Below, piece after piece: positions 25,492-64,000 of a stretch of DNA of 64,000 bases (its first letter is position 1; every line of letters begins with the position of its first letter). The position numbers and the translations under genes were made by a program. Under the pieces are notes generated by a model. It was not told where the DNA came from. It worked only from the letters and a program-made list of their open reading frames with translations, and made no database searches. This stretch comes from Sagittula sp. P11 (GTDB lineage Bacteria > Pseudomonadota > Alphaproteobacteria > Rhodobacterales > Rhodobacteraceae): the NCBI RefSeq assembly GCF_002814095.1, contig NZ_CP021913.1:1736001-1800000 (forward strand), given 5' to 3'.

Positions 25492-25560
25492 GCTTTACGC
25501 CCGGGCAAACACTTTGGCGAGTCCGCTTTTCGTGCGAAAACGCACAGCCCGGCGAAAAGA

Positions 25561-26001
25561 TCACGCCACGGAGAAGCGGTACTCCACCTCGGCAAAGCGG
25601 TCGCGCGGGAAAACGTAGAGGAAGCGCAGCCCCTCAGACCCGGCCACCGTGCCATGCTCCACGTCCGACGGGATGTAGAGCGCAACGCCCGGCGCGATCT
25701 CATGTGCTACGCCATCGATGGTGACGATGCCGGTGCCCGACAGGCCGAAGTAGATTTCGGCCGGGGCATGGCGGTGCGGCAACAGCGTTCCCTGCGGGCC
25801 GAACTCCGCCACGCCCAGCACCATGGAGGAGGTCGCGGTCTTGTCGCCGTCGAACAGGGTCTTCCAGCGCACCGTGCCAAACGCCGGGTCCTCGCCGCCT
25901 TCCAGCGGCGCATGGTCGGCATTGGCCACCACCGGAAGCGCAGACATGGCCACGGCCGCCATCGTCGCGGCGGTCAGGTCGAACTGGACGGTCTCGTTCA
26001 T
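25561..26001 (-). CDS. cupin-domain protein, DddW-like (possible DMSP lyase)
   Basis: A 146-residue single-cupin protein. Metal ligands are visible in LPHRHAPAEIYFGLSG (H-x-H-x3-E, with the following Tyr) and in DVEHGTVAG (third His). The lead-in VRWKTLFDGDKTATSSMVLGV is, from memory, like the cupin DMSP lyase DddW, which cleaves dimethylsulfoniopropionate to dimethyl sulfide and acrylate in marine roseobacters. I cannot separate DddW from other small cupins by eye, so function is tentative. The ATG at 26001 is preferred to one at 26043, which lacks a clear ribosome site. Confidence 0.7.
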   Translation of the reverse strand: MNETVQFDLTAATMAAVAMSALPVVANADHAPLEGGEDPAFGTVRWKTLFDGDKTATSSMVLGVAEFGPQGTLLPHRHAPAEIYFGLSGTGIVTIDGVAHEIAPGVALYIPSDVEHGTVAGSEGLRFLYVFPRDRFAEVEYRFSVA

Positions 26002-26158
26002 CGCGGGCGCCTCCCGGCAAAGCGTGTCTCTGGATCCGCCCATTGCATTTCAGACACCTCCACCGCTGCCCGGAAAACGACGCGCATGTCGCACATGACG
26101 CTGTGACGGGCAAAAAACCGGCGCCGTGACCGGCCATTCATGCGGAAAATTGAATTTA

Positions 26159-53657: not shown

Positions 53658-53809
53658 ACCCGTTCCGGGGTACGCGTCAGATGCCAGGCATCAGTGGCTC
53701 CTGTTTCACATCGCGGCCCCGGAGAGCGGCGCTTCGTCGGAAGGCCAAGGCCGGGGCCACGCGATCATTCGTGCAAGATTCAGCGAACGGCAGGATCGGG
53801 CCCGGACTG

Positions 53810-54679
53810 TCAATATGCCGCTCCTCCATCGCCTTTCAGGACTTTGAACAAAGCCATCACGTGCTCTTCGCCGTAGCCGGCTTTGATTGCCTTGTCGAAA
53901 AGTGTGCCAATGTGGTTCGGAAACCCGGCATCAATGCCTACGTCCATGGCTTGCCGCTTCAATAATTCCAGCGATGCCTGCCAAACGGACAACGTGGCCG
54001 TTCTTTGATCGTAAGTGCCGTCTCGTATCGTTCCGACATGATGCTGAATGCGTTCATTGTCAGGAAACATCGAAATGAACTTCTGCAGGTCTATTCCCTC
54101 TGCCTGGCATATGTTCGAAGCGTGCAGCATTCCCAAGAACTCGCCGAAGCGGATCGACAGCCATGCCAGGTCAAGCACGGATACGGCTGCAATGTCGTCG
54201 CCGAGATGCGCTATCTTCCCGCCCTGATGGCCCAGAAGGTTTTCAACCTGCCTGTAGCTGTCAGAGGGTCCGGAAATCAGGATGTTTCCGTCCTTCGTTC
54301 CCAGATACTGGGGGCCACAGTGAATGGCACCGTAGAGAAAGTCGGCGTTTCTTTCAGCCAGCCATTTCTGGTCTTCCCTTACCTGTTTTGGCAGGCTGGT
54401 GCTGAGTTGAATTATCGTTCGACCATCGAGCAGCCGCCCGACTTGGCTGTGTCCAAAGAGAGTAAGAACTGATTTAGGATCGTCTACACAGATGATTAAG
54501 ACCGGGCTTGCAACAATCGCGTCTGAAATCGTTTGAGCGACGACGACATTCTCGGGCTCCAGCGCCTCTGCTTTCCTGATCGTGCGGTTCCAGACGGTTA
54601 TGGAAACTCCGGCTCTCTGGTAAGCTCTGGCAAGCGCCAATCCCATCAGCCCAAGCCCGAAGATTGTGACTTCGCTCAC
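53810..54679 (-). CDS. NAD(P)-dependent oxidoreductase, imine reductase-like
   Basis: A 289-residue protein of the 6-phosphogluconate dehydrogenase/beta-hydroxyacid superfamily. The Rossmann motif is TIFGLGLMGLALARAYQRAG; VWNRTIRKAEAL then suggests NADPH binding. Blocks YGAIHCGPQYLGTKDGNILI and VSVLDLAWLSIRFGEFLGML are close to imine reductases. The GTG at 54679 gives the family length, with GGGAGAG upstream. The gene is visibly AT-richer than its neighbours, with different codon use, so it may be acquired. Confidence 0.82.
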   Translation of the reverse strand: MSEVTIFGLGLMGLALARAYQRAGVSITVWNRTIRKAEALEPENVVVAQTISDAIVASPVLIICVDDPKSVLTLFGHSQVGRLLDGRTIIQLSTSLPKQVREDQKWLAERNADFLYGAIHCGPQYLGTKDGNILISGPSDSYRQVENLLGHQGGKIAHLGDDIAAVSVLDLAWLSIRFGEFLGMLHASNICQAEGIDLQKFISMFPDNERIQHHVGTIRDGTYDQRTATLSVWQASLELLKRQAMDVGIDAGFPNHIGTLFDKAIKAGYGEEHVMALFKVLKGDGGAAY

Positions 54680-54893
54680 TTCCCACTCTCCCGACCAAAT
54701 GCGTGACGAGTGCGTAGACACTATGTCAAAACAGCAAGTTGACCAAGGTCCGGTTTGGGTCAGAAAGGCTTGGCATCCGGGCCGGAAGTGCCTGGTACGG
54801 CACCTTGGCAACATTCAGAGAGTGCGACACCAAGAGCCGGAAATGCACGCCATTCGGCAGCAAGTCCGCCGGGATGAAGGGAACCCATGCGCC

Positions 54894-60995: not shown

Positions 60996-61361
60996 ATGGC
61001 AGTCAAGATTCGTCTCGCCCGCGGCGGTTCCAAGAAGCGTCCCTTCTACCGCATCGTCGCCGCCGACTCGCGCATGCCGCGCGACGGCCGCTTCATCGAG
61101 AAGCTGGGCACCTACAACCCGCTCCTGCCGAAGGACTCGGAAGAGCGCGTGAAAATGGACCTGGAGCGCATCCAGTACTGGATGTCGCACGGCGCCCAGC
61201 CGACCGACCGCGTGTCCCGCTTCCTCGAAGCCGCAGGCGTGATCGAGAAGAAAGAGCGCGCCAACCTCAAGAAGGGCGAGCCGGGCAAGAAAGCCCAGGA
61301 TCGCGCCGAAGAGCGTGCCGCCAAGGCAGCCGCCGCCGAAGAAGCGACCGCCGAGGAATAA
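60996..61361 (+). CDS. rpsP: 30S ribosomal protein S16
   Basis: Small-subunit assembly protein. The 121-residue protein starts [20 protein letters not shown], then [20 protein letters not shown] and [20 protein letters not shown], with an Ala/Glu-rich tail. The start follows CAAGGAGAAAC. In most bacteria rimM follows; here the terminator and a foreign-looking insert come next. Confidence 0.97.
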
Positions 61362-61401
61362 TCGGCCCGCATCTGCGGCACGGTCCCCGGACCTTGTCAG
61401 A

Positions 61402-61430
61402 AGCCCCCGCCCCACCGGCGGGGGCTTTTT
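61402..61430 (+). terminator. intrinsic terminator of rpsP
   Basis: AGCCCCCGCC, loop CCACC, GGCGGGGGCT, then TTTT. It has a perfect 10-bp stem, 40 bp after the stop. Its right part is the direct repeat described next. Confidence 0.93.
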
Positions 61431-61433
61431 CAT
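61406..61433 (+). repeat. 28-bp direct repeat, left copy (att-like)
   Basis: From 61406 (CCCGCCCCACC...) to 61433 (...CTTTTTCAT) it is identical to 62724-62751. It is the right part of the rpsP terminator. Confidence 0.85.
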
Positions 61434-61490
61434 AACGGCATGAACCTAGCAGCCGCACAGAATATTTTCAGAAGAATAGAGTATCAATAT

Positions 61491-62540
61491 TTAAATTGGA
61501 TCAGAATACAAAATTTCCTCTCTATTAAATTCATCTCCTCCATAGCGATTTGCGCTTGCGGCCCCGGTGGCACGCACTTCGTAAGCGACGCTTAATTTTC
61601 TGACAATTCCTATTCTGTCCTTGTATATCACATACACAAGAATTGGCCCGAACCGCCGAAATGTAGCAAGCCGCGTAGCCTCCGTGATCTCATACCGAGC
61701 CAATGCAAAGACTTGATCCATATAATACTTCAGAGAACCGCTCCTAAGTTCCATTCCATGGCCATCCAATGGAAGGAACTCGCCCGGTTCGAGAGTAAAT
61801 GAACCTTTCTTTGAAAGATTTTCATGAATATCCGTGTCCAACAAGTCGACGGCGTTCGGGATTTCCGGATCAACGACCTTTATTCCATACTGCATGATGG
61901 TTGCGATGGTCTCTCCTTTATTCCAAACCTTTAGTTTACCTGTTAGAACCACCAGTCGTTTTGGCTCGTCCTGCTTAAGCTTGACGTCAGCCATCGGGTC
62001 AAGGAAGGGCCCTTCAAAAGCCACCTCGATTCTAGGCCGATACTTTTCCCGAAGATCACGCAAGATGATGTCGTTGGCCCTTTCACTAGCTATTACCGCT
62101 CTCTCTGCAGCGTTGCTCCCTCTTGCCGCTTCAGTAACAGCGTTCCTAGTTTCCCTCAGTGTTTGCCAGACAAAAAATATCCCCACCGCCGTAACCGAAA
62201 TTGATGTGATGCCAACTATCCAAGTCGCCCACAGCATAGCCTCGGCCCAGATTGCCATCTCTCTTTGCGCATTCAAATCTTGCTCCGAGCGCTCCTGTTC
62301 TCGCGTCAGAGCACCCTGATTAGACAAGCACCTCTGAAAATCAGCTATCGTTTCAGACCTACTCAAGCAGAGCTCCAAGCCGACCTCTATTGATGCCGTC
62401 TTCGCATTTATTTTTGCATGCTCTGAATCAGAATCTTGGAAACCCCAAGAGTAGGAAAAAGTTATGGAGATAAAACCGATTGACAACAGCGCCAACACGC
62501 AAAACAAAGCCAAGGCCAAGTATCCATTGTCAAATCTCAA
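61491..62540 (-). CDS. two-helix membrane protein of unknown function
   Basis: A 349-residue protein. Helix 1 is residues 8-28 (YLALALFCVLALLSIGFISI); helix 2 is near 100-125 (ATWIVGITSISVTAVGIFFV). Between them lies a short acidic segment with cysteines (LELCLSRSETIADFQRCLSN). After helix 2 a coiled-coil segment (AARGSNAAERAVIASERAND) precedes a C-terminal, probably cytoplasmic, beta-rich domain (RPRIEVAFEGPFLDP, LTGKLKVWNKGETIATIMQY). The WQTLRETRNAVTEAARGSNA pattern is common in membrane proteins of alphaproteobacterial islands and phages. Function unknown. Codon use is AT-rich and unlike its neighbours. Confidence 0.72.
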   Translation of the reverse strand: MRFDNGYLALALFCVLALLSIGFISITFSYSWGFQDSDSEHAKINAKTASIEVGLELCLSRSETIADFQRCLSNQGALTREQERSEQDLNAQREMAIWAEAMLWATWIVGITSISVTAVGIFFVWQTLRETRNAVTEAARGSNAAERAVIASERANDIILRDLREKYRPRIEVAFEGPFLDPMADVKLKQDEPKRLVVLTGKLKVWNKGETIATIMQYGIKVVDPEIPNAVDLLDTDIHENLSKKGSFTLEPGEFLPLDGHGMELRSGSLKYYMDQVFALARYEITEATRLATFRRFGPILVYVIYKDRIGIVRKLSVAYEVRATGAASANRYGGDEFNREEILYSDPI

Positions 62541-62723
62541 TATTACCCCCGACAGGATAGCGATTCGATGAATCGCTCAAATACGACATTACTTCCTCAT
62601 CTTAACGGCGCTTATCGCCCATGGCGAAAATGCTAATGCCGGAACAGGGCCATCCCTCTTACAGAGTTTGTCAATCCTATACTCTATCATATGATATCTC
62701 GAAGAATGTATCGAGTCTCTATA

Positions 62724-62751
62724 CCCGCCCCACCGGCGGGGGCTTTTTCAT
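62724..62751 (+). repeat. 28-bp direct repeat, right copy (att-like)
   Basis: Identical to 61406-61433. Here the left terminator arm is incomplete (flank ATA instead of GCC), so the original full terminator is the copy next to rpsP and this is the duplicate. Confidence 0.85.
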
Positions 62752-62787
62752 GTCTGGATCACACCGGCCCCCGCGGCCCGAAGCACC

Positions 62788-63765
62788 TCAGCGCCGGATC
62801 GACCAGGTCAGCGCAACCTCGTGGCCCGAGGCCTCCAGCATCCCGCGCTTCGATGTCCAGCCCGCCGGGCAGATCACCATCCCGGCCCGCGCGCCCCGCG
62901 CCGCCAATGCCGCCTCGGCGGCCTGCAAGAGGCGCAGCGCCTCGCCCGCGACACCCTCCGCGCCGATCTCCGCGAATGCCTCGTGGAAATAGTCGTCGAT
63001 CATGCCGATGCCCTTCGGATCGTGCGCGGCGGGCAGGTGCAGCGGGGTGGCGGGATGCGCGATGGCATAGCCCGACACCCGGCCCCCGGCCTCCGTCACC
63101 AGCATGTCGCGGTCCGTCAGCGTCAGGCTCTTGCGCATCCACGATTCGAACCGCGCATCCGCCTCCGGGTGCGGCTTCCAGAACGGATCGACCGCGTACA
63201 GGCAATCCCGGTTCACCGCGCTCTGCGCCACGAGGCCGGGGATGTCCTCTGCCCCGGCCAGCCGCACGGCACCCTCCGCCGCATCCATCCGCGCGCCGTA
63301 ATACAGCGTCAGCGGCTCGTAACCCGCCCCTTCCAGCGCCGCAGTCCAGGCACAGGGCAGCACGGAAGAGGCCAGCAGCACCCTTGCCCCCGCCTCCCGC
63401 AGGTCGGCCTCCGCCGCTTCCAGCAGCGCCTCTGCCGTGCCCTCCGGGGCGTCCGGCGCCACGGCGCAATCCTCCATCAGAAGGCCGGGCATCCCGTCCT
63501 CCCCGGCATAGATCGGCGGCACCGGCAGCAGGATGGAATGCGCGACACCCGTGATGCGCCCCTCTTCCTCTGCCACGGTCCAGCCATGCCGGATCGGCGT
63601 CCCGCCCTGCGTCGCCCCCTCGATGAAGCTGGCGACCGCCGTTCCCGCATCGGGCTTCAGCGCCCACAGCGCGGGATCACAGGCCTGCCGCGCGGCCGCA
63701 TCCTGCAACAGCAGCCCGGTGACGGACCCCACATCTTCGGGCGAAAACGGACGAACGACGGTCAT
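62788..63765 (-). CDS. GNAT family N-acetyltransferase, tandem-domain type
   Basis: A 325-residue protein. The first half (MTVVRPFSPEDVGSVTGLLL to about 150) contains GVAHSILLPVPPIYAGEDGM. The second (RLAGAEDIPGLVAQSAVNRD onwards) contains TEAGGRVSGYAIAHPATPLH and, near the end, MLEASGHEVALTWSIRR. This is two GNAT-like halves, as in dual acetyltransferases, but the acetyl-CoA loop is weak in both. It is not closely similar to the array at 57.9-60.6 kb. It lies on the opposite strand to rpsP. Confidence 0.8.
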   Translation of the reverse strand: MTVVRPFSPEDVGSVTGLLLQDAAARQACDPALWALKPDAGTAVASFIEGATQGGTPIRHGWTVAEEEGRITGVAHSILLPVPPIYAGEDGMPGLLMEDCAVAPDAPEGTAEALLEAAEADLREAGARVLLASSVLPCAWTAALEGAGYEPLTLYYGARMDAAEGAVRLAGAEDIPGLVAQSAVNRDCLYAVDPFWKPHPEADARFESWMRKSLTLTDRDMLVTEAGGRVSGYAIAHPATPLHLPAAHDPKGIGMIDDYFHEAFAEIGAEGVAGEALRLLQAAEAALAARGARAGMVICPAGWTSKRGMLEASGHEVALTWSIRR

Positions 63766-63910
63766 GACGGGCACTCCTGCATTGAAACGCCACAAGCTAA
63801 GCCCGTTTTCCGCGCCTCTGCCAGCGGATGCCCCGCCCCCGGCGGCTTCCCGCACACCCTGTGTCCGTCCCCTCTGGCCCCCGCCCGCGCGCCGTGGCAC
63901 ATGCTGCGCC

Positions 63911-64000
63911 ATGTTCGGACTGATCCGCCTCCCCATCCTGTTGCTCATCGCCTTCGTTGCGGGCATCTTCTACGAGCGCGCGCAGCAGGAAGAGTCCTGC
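63911..64000 (+). CDS. small membrane protein, partial
   Basis: Only the first 30 residues are visible; the gene continues past the right edge. The sequence MFGLIRLPILLLIAFVAGIF has a hydrophobic helix followed by YERAQQEESC. Similar small proteins occur near rpsP/rimM in Rhodobacterales, as far as I recall. Confidence 0.55.
   Translation, partial: MFGLIRLPILLLIAFVAGIFYERAQQEESC

Follow-up and report, generated by a model that had tools for sequence, protein, structure and literature searches.

In Sagittula sp. P11, the gene for ribosomal protein S16 (rpsP) is followed by a terminator hairpin, part of which recurs downstream as an exact direct repeat; between the two copies is A+T-rich DNA with a single gene (the cargo gene). 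The features at the locus are given in coordinates of the window, that is, the whole stretch of 64,000 nucleotides that was analysed (contig NZ_CP021913.1, positions 1,736,001 to 1,800,000); G001, G002, and G003 are the genomes of three congeners.

60996..61361, plus strand: rpsP, ribosomal protein S16 (Pfam PF00886, E 4.1e-30)
61402..61426, plus strand: full hairpin of the rpsP terminator, with a 10-bp stem, a 5-nt loop, and a T run after it (script scan, RNA fold)
61406..61433, plus strand: left copy of the 28-bp repeat (exact match)
61434..62723, no strand: inserted DNA, 1,290 bp, 46% G+C, absent at rpsP in G001, G002, and G003 (comparison)
61491..62540, minus strand: cargo gene, 349-aa predicted membrane protein (ORF, relatives, alignment, low-confidence model)
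62686..62714, minus strand: promoter-like hexamers 5' of the cargo gene, within the insert, weak (9/12) (motif scan)
62724..62751, plus strand: right copy of the 28-bp repeat, hairpin stub only (exact match, RNA fold)
62788..63966, minus strand: right-flank ORF, possible GNAT acetyltransferase (PF00583, E 0.0062, 17.2 bits, below the cut-off of 20.7)

A repeat-bounded insert at the rpsP terminator

The repeat, CCCGCCCCACCGGCGGGGGCTTTTTCAT, is identical at 28/28 positions in its two copies (61406-61433 and 62724-62751), which start 1,318 bp apart; it is exactly 28 bp long because the neighboring bases differ between the copies on both sides. When up to three mismatches are allowed, the only matches in the whole genome of 5,576,178 bases are these two copies. 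The terminator hairpin, located with a script scan, starts 40 bp 3' of the rpsP stop codon, and the repeat begins within its left arm, takes in the loop, the right arm, and the T run, and ends with CAT. In RNA folding, the left copy with its flanks gives a full rho-independent terminator (−26.6 kcal/mol, z −4.6); the right copy, in which the outer left arm is missing, is a weak stub that folds no better than shuffled sequences (−14.3 kcal/mol, z −0.4). A preliminary description of this DNA had reported the exact repeat, the full stem in the left copy and a duplicate on the right, all of which we confirm; it placed the repeat correctly at the right half of the terminator, but its extent is greater, since the repeat begins in the left arm and reaches the CAT.

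The enclosed 1,290 bp have a G+C content of 46.4%, compared with a chromosome average of ~67%. Among 3,591 half-overlapping segments of this length from 2.319 Mb of the chromosome (the insert's own included; values rounded to 1%), the mean is 66.8% G+C with a standard deviation of 3.2%, and three are at ≤46%. We also searched 2.319 Mb, that is, about half of the 4.62-Mb chromosome (the other six contigs are outside the scan), for exact repeats of at least 16 bp located 0.3–20 kb apart. The rpsP pair alone among the 374 pairs encloses DNA of ≤57% G+C (the next-lowest values are 58%, 58%, and 59%); no further element of the same kind, as defined by these limits of G+C content and repeat length, is present in the scanned 2.319 Mb.

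Two other repeats on the chromosome were noted. A perfect palindrome, TGTTTCACGTGAAACA, occurs in two copies 1.9 kb apart (G000:C1:2093462 and 2095367), perhaps near the origin, and is presumably parS-like. A 24-bp hairpin repeat, GGTGCGTGAATCACGCACCCTACG, occurs at G000:C1:3014854 and 3015454, where the copies, 600 bp apart, enclose DNA of 59% G+C; this is possibly a common extragenic palindrome.

The insert contains a single long credible ORF, the cargo gene, which has no recombinase match; no recombinase was found in the insert, and no terminal inverted repeat scores above shuffled sequences (24/200 shuffles score equally well). The earlier account of ~1.3 kb of AT-rich DNA with one membrane protein and no recombinase is borne out. 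The promoter-like hexamers 5' of the cargo gene are one of three such sites in the scanned region, where 1.1 are expected. We consider the insert at rpsP to be a genuine observation and a modest curiosity.

An empty site in the closest congener

Four genomes of the genus were compared, the window's own and G001, G002, and G003; each represents one species, and all contain rpsP. In G003, the closest congener (rpsP 96% identical), a single terminator copy (27/28) is joined directly to the flank that starts at 62752 in the window; the right flank is identical at 822/983 aligned bases, and the DNA of the right-flank ORF (62788-63966) is also located 3' of the empty site. The preliminary description had proposed that the outer flanks fit a simple ancestral junction and that relatives be searched for a single copy joined to the 62752 flank; G003 has precisely this arrangement. 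In G001 and G002, the 1.5 kb 3' of rpsP contain different terminators and match neither the insert nor the right flank; a search of the whole genome of G002 gave no cargo homologue. Because none of the three congeners (0/3) has the insert at rpsP, the simplest reading is that the insertion is fairly recent and took place in the window's lineage; loss in G003 instead of gain is possible, but it would require exact excision.

The window's chromosome and G003 are collinear across the 324 kb compared, and the alignments contain 14 junctions, including that at rpsP, plus four or five more. We searched for direct matches between the borders of 12 junctions with gaps of at least 284 bp (those left out are some replacements or insertions and gaps of <60 bp). 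The rpsP junction gives a 28-bp match with a score of 56; for the remaining 11, scores are 10–15 over at most 15 columns. At three other junctions the alignments overlap in G003, by 21, 38, and 28 bp, and none was retained: the 21-bp overlap accompanies a 555-bp insert (window 25553-26107) with a border repeat that is not above chance (12 columns, two mismatches), the 38-bp overlap, at a 33-bp insert, looks like a repeated palindrome, and the 28-bp overlap, at a 38-bp insert, is a short G+C-rich palindromic stretch. Some of the other G003 junctions are AT-richer gene inserts or replacements, so single-gene gain is not rare in the genus; the unusual feature of the rpsP insert is its exact ends, rather than the gain of a single gene.

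Two differences from G003 are described in their own right. At G000:C1:1852780-1853939 (L075), an AT-richer one-gene replacement encodes a putAbiC protein (PF16872, E 5.8e-14), a candidate abortive-infection gene; its borders contain no repeat. In the window, positions 53673-54889 are an insertion (G003 has 105 bp there) with an NAD-binding/reductive-aminase-like gene (PF03446, PF21761); this insertion is located directly 3' of a terminator-like palindrome and also has no border repeat.

The cargo gene and its relatives

The cargo ORF (61491-62540, minus strand) has a TTG start and encodes a predicted membrane protein of 349 residues that belongs to no known family; its N-terminal half is helical in a single-sequence model of low confidence (mean pLDDT 48.8). 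Searches of Pfam, PADLOC, PHROGs, and NCBIfam gave no acceptable match; the only Pfam match (E 0.057) is below the cut-off, and the best PADLOC match, also the only one, has an E-value of 0.016 over 49 residues.

Homologues were found at E ≤ 1e-3 in eight other genomes when 295 family genomes were searched, and four more genomes were added from 385 genomes of the class. We kept 11 of these 12 relatives; L015 was dropped because the match is antisense in a long gene-like ORF, presumably EF-G-like, and has a stop within it. Homology to the relatives is confined mainly to residues 9-153 of the cargo protein. Eight of the 11 (L008, L009, L011, L012, L013, L103, L104, and L106) adjoin an IS1595-type transposase and a DUF6471 gene, and the cargo protein matches these eight over its N-terminal part with E-values from 1.6e-14 to 4.0e-5. 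The neighbors were found by tblastn with the L008 proteins, and the family names were checked for L008 only (NF033547, E 6.9e-40; PF12762, E 1.8e-36; PF20075, E 4e-25). As for the other three, L105, which is cut by a contig end, has a partial DUF6471 gene; L010 has kept the end motif TTATGTATCAA.CGCACCAAG, with no transposase within the fetched stretch; and L014 has neither a transposase nor a DUF6471 match. Because 8/11 relatives adjoin IS1595-type transposases, the cargo is a relative of transposon passenger genes. It had been suggested earlier that the cargo could be a defence or mobile-element accessory gene; the kinship with mobile elements stands (8/11 beside an IS1595-type transposase), and a role in defence finds no acceptable match in the four databases. 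The element is an insertion difference from G003 with exact repeats, foreign composition, and a cargo that is kin to transposon passengers.

No cargo homologue was found in scans of plasmid, phage, IMG/VR, and GTDB sequences (the IMG/VR and GTDB scans catch close relatives only), and a phage, plasmid, or viral origin of the insert was rejected for lack of a match in these scans. Among 26 pattern matches in GTDB contigs, no named species with a cargo homologue was confirmed.

The eight loci listed above share an IS1595-type layout in Alphaproteobacteria, that is, a transposase, a DUF6471 gene, and a membrane-protein passenger; in L008-L013, the end of the passenger gene is close to the motif TTATGTATCAA.CGCACCAAG. 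In L008, L010, and L013, the transposon ends directly next to an extragenic motif resembling GAAATAT, which may reflect a target preference.

The target site in the family

The genes rpsP and rimM were each searched in 394 family genomes; among the matches listed, 84 genomes have both, and in 83 the two are on one contig and strand. Among these 83, the rpsP-rimM gap is <500 bp in 55, and the gap in the window (2,704 bp) is exceeded once, by G070 (4,757 bp), both counts being among the matches listed. The four longest other gaps (G070, G310, G182, and G038) hold at least one ordinary-looking ORF and lack both an exact repeat of at least 16 bp at a spacing of at least 300 bp and any recombinase recognisable by eye; with no repeat-bounded element in these four, the idea that the rpsP terminator is a general hotspot was rejected. 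Gene gain is tolerated at the rpsP-rimM site, which is no marked integration hotspot among the sampled genomes.

The 28-mer is absent at up to two mismatches from the 294 other family genomes (the one match in 295 is the window's own; G003 is outside this sample). The 28-mer pattern, with C or G allowed at the position that varies in G003, is also absent from the 84,980 species genomes of GTDB in an exact scan, and this pattern and the 27-mer have no match in exact scans of IMG/VR; near relatives are possibly missing from both collections. The terminator sequence is private to the window's lineage.

Because the 28-mer is absent from the 294 family genomes and from the GTDB and IMG/VR scans, the repeat is unlikely to be a conventional att site located in a conserved target. 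The lack of a recombinase in the insert and of the 28-mer elsewhere in the family instead points to either an element with a very narrow host range or a target duplication in situ. For an att site brought from outside, it is awkward to explain why 28 bases should equal a host sequence that is not conserved, unless the element is confined to the species or its closest kin; on a staggered cut with fill-in, the identity of the copies is automatic because the second is made from the first.

Candidate movers in the genome

The genome contains 15 tyrosine recombinase matches, 14 of them above the Pfam cut-off; their action in trans is conceivable in principle. No integron integrase is above cut-off (the best TIGR02249 match scores 85 bits versus 265), no IS1595 transposase is present, and no Ku gene was found.

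Att-like repeats were found for one of the recombinases, and these are located at a tRNA, not at a terminator. At G000:C1:2392922-2410567 (L163, L164), a 47-bp repeat has copies at 2392922 and 2410521, ~17.6 kb apart; the first coincides with the 3' part of a tRNA-Met gene, and a tyrosine recombinase at 2409055 adjoins the second. This is probably an integrase-borne island of 17.6 kb at a tRNA. It has a conserved target and an integrase beside one end, whereas the rpsP insert on the same chromosome has neither.

Three adjacent tyrosine recombinases are found at G000:C3:42328-45133 and again, with equal scores and in opposite orientation, at G000:C4:83324-86129; these triplets look like a recombinase-in-trio element.

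How the insert may have arrived

Our tentative reading, to which we give somewhat less than an even chance, is that a ~1.3-kb one-gene element was put into the rpsP terminator by site-specific recombination, with the recombinase supplied in trans. After the window's lineage split from that of G003 (with gain as the presumed direction of change), a small circle would have recombined with the terminator palindrome, the enzyme being probably of the tyrosine type and acting in trans; the 28-bp copies would then be attL and attR, the gene-side copy would restore the full rpsP terminator (as predicted by folding), and the displaced copy would stay as a stub. The anatomy fits site-specific integration because the core is palindromic, the repeat continues until the host element ends, the gene side is restored, and a stub is left on the far side.

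Several observations argue for site-specific recombination in trans: the uninterrupted site of G003; a full hairpin retained next to rpsP, in the manner of islands that restore the 3' end of a tRNA; the tRNA-Met island as an ordinary example on the same chromosome; the border match, notable only at rpsP among the 12 junctions tested; the 14 above-cut-off tyrosine recombinases (15 in all) as possible helpers; and the relatives of the cargo, which are passengers of mobile elements. However, a recombinase is missing from the insert; the target lacks conservation (0/294 family genomes), whereas the att site of a mobile element is expected in a conserved target; the att-like repeats found for one recombinase are located at a tRNA; and the four longest other rpsP-rimM gaps contain no such element. 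Site-specific integration, as proposed in the preliminary description, therefore agrees with the anatomy (the full hairpin on the gene side, the stub on the far side) and not with the expectation of an integrase (none in the insert) or of a conserved target (0/294 genomes); the search that it recommended for an integrase next to such sites recognised none in the insert or in the four gaps.

It is very doubtful that the insert represents a class, that is, cargo-only cassettes that use terminator hairpins as recombination sites with host or helper machinery in trans; if such a class exists, single genes could enter behind essential genes with no harm done.

Duplication of the target site is a rather unlikely explanation, although one to be taken seriously: the terminator, as a hairpin-forming sequence, would have suffered a staggered break at which a linear cargo fragment was captured, and fill-in would have duplicated the 28 bp; our estimate also covers insertion by a transposase or another enzyme with a long stagger. 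Such an event would need no recombinase and would account for the identity of the two copies of a lineage-specific sequence (27/28 in G003; 0/294 at up to two mismatches), and palindromes are fragile sites. Such an event lacks a known agent, since no Ku was found in the genome, which makes classical end joining unlikely, and the insert has no terminal inverted repeat above shuffles (24/200); the duplications made by transposons are usually shorter than 28 bp, and a start inside the left arm and an end just past the T run would both be chance.

That the insert is the remnant of a larger integrated island (a prophage, ICE, or satellite), from which internal deletion left one gene and two att sites, we regard as improbable. 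The end structure would be the same as for site-specific integration, and islands often undergo internal deletion. However, the cargo gene is the only long credible ORF in the insert (the 240 non-coding bases were matched against an IS1595 transposase and DUF6471 only), no intact relative is present at rpsP in the four gaps examined, and no phage, plasmid, or IMG/VR record contains the cargo.

A degenerate IS1595-family transposon, or a passenger cassette without its transposase, is highly improbable even though 8/11 relatives (12 found) adjoin an IS1595-type transposase and DUF6471 gene and L010 keeps an IS end: the end motif is absent from window 61000-63000 at up to six substitutions, the insert contains no transposase or DUF6471 remnant (best tblastn E 1.2), the genome has no IS1595 transposase, and IS1595 duplications are ~8 bp, versus 28 bp at rpsP. 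The missing ends largely refute an IS1595 element. An integron cassette was rejected, with no match to an integron integrase reaching the cut-off anywhere in the genome, and we leave only a slight chance to all other explanations taken together.

Comparison with known systems

The rpsP insert, whose ends are exact, whose host element is restored, and whose site is empty in a sister species, is a usable test system for the arrival of genes. If the terminator palindrome is a recombination site, the spaces 3' of essential genes would offer generic landing pads; if the target was duplicated, the insert documents the capture of a fragment in a genome where no Ku was found. Single foreign genes occur in bacterial genomes without a visible mover.

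Islands that tyrosine integrases insert at tRNA genes or other gene 3' ends resemble the rpsP insert in having direct repeats of tens of bp, in the restoration of the 3' part on the gene side with the duplicate displaced to the far side, and, often, in foreign base composition. The rpsP insert differs in its size (~1.3 kb), its one gene, the lack of an integrase, and its target, a non-conserved terminator. Judged as an integrase-borne island, it has an empty site and att-like repeats that restore the host element (the hairpin, by folding), and no adjacent recombinase.

IS1595-family transposons with passengers share with the insert the homologous N-terminal part of the cargo protein; the end motif, the transposase, and the DUF6471 gene are all absent from the insert, and the length of the duplication differs. 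Integron gene cassettes, like the insert, consist of one gene bounded by hairpin-forming sequence; in contrast, the rpsP insert is a single insertion, its repeat is a terminator, and no integron integrase match in its genome reaches the cut-off.

The H47 island of E. coli is 13 kb long, makes microcin H47, and contains extensive imperfect repeats; it has no recombinase of its own, its flanking direct repeats recombine, and its excision is independent of RecA and of the host recombinases tested (PMC5426353). The H47 island and the rpsP insert are alike in being recombinase-free and repeat-bounded; mobility was shown for H47 (PMC5426353), and we infer it for the rpsP insert. H47 shows that islands that are bounded by repeats and have no recombinase can be mobile (PMC5426353).
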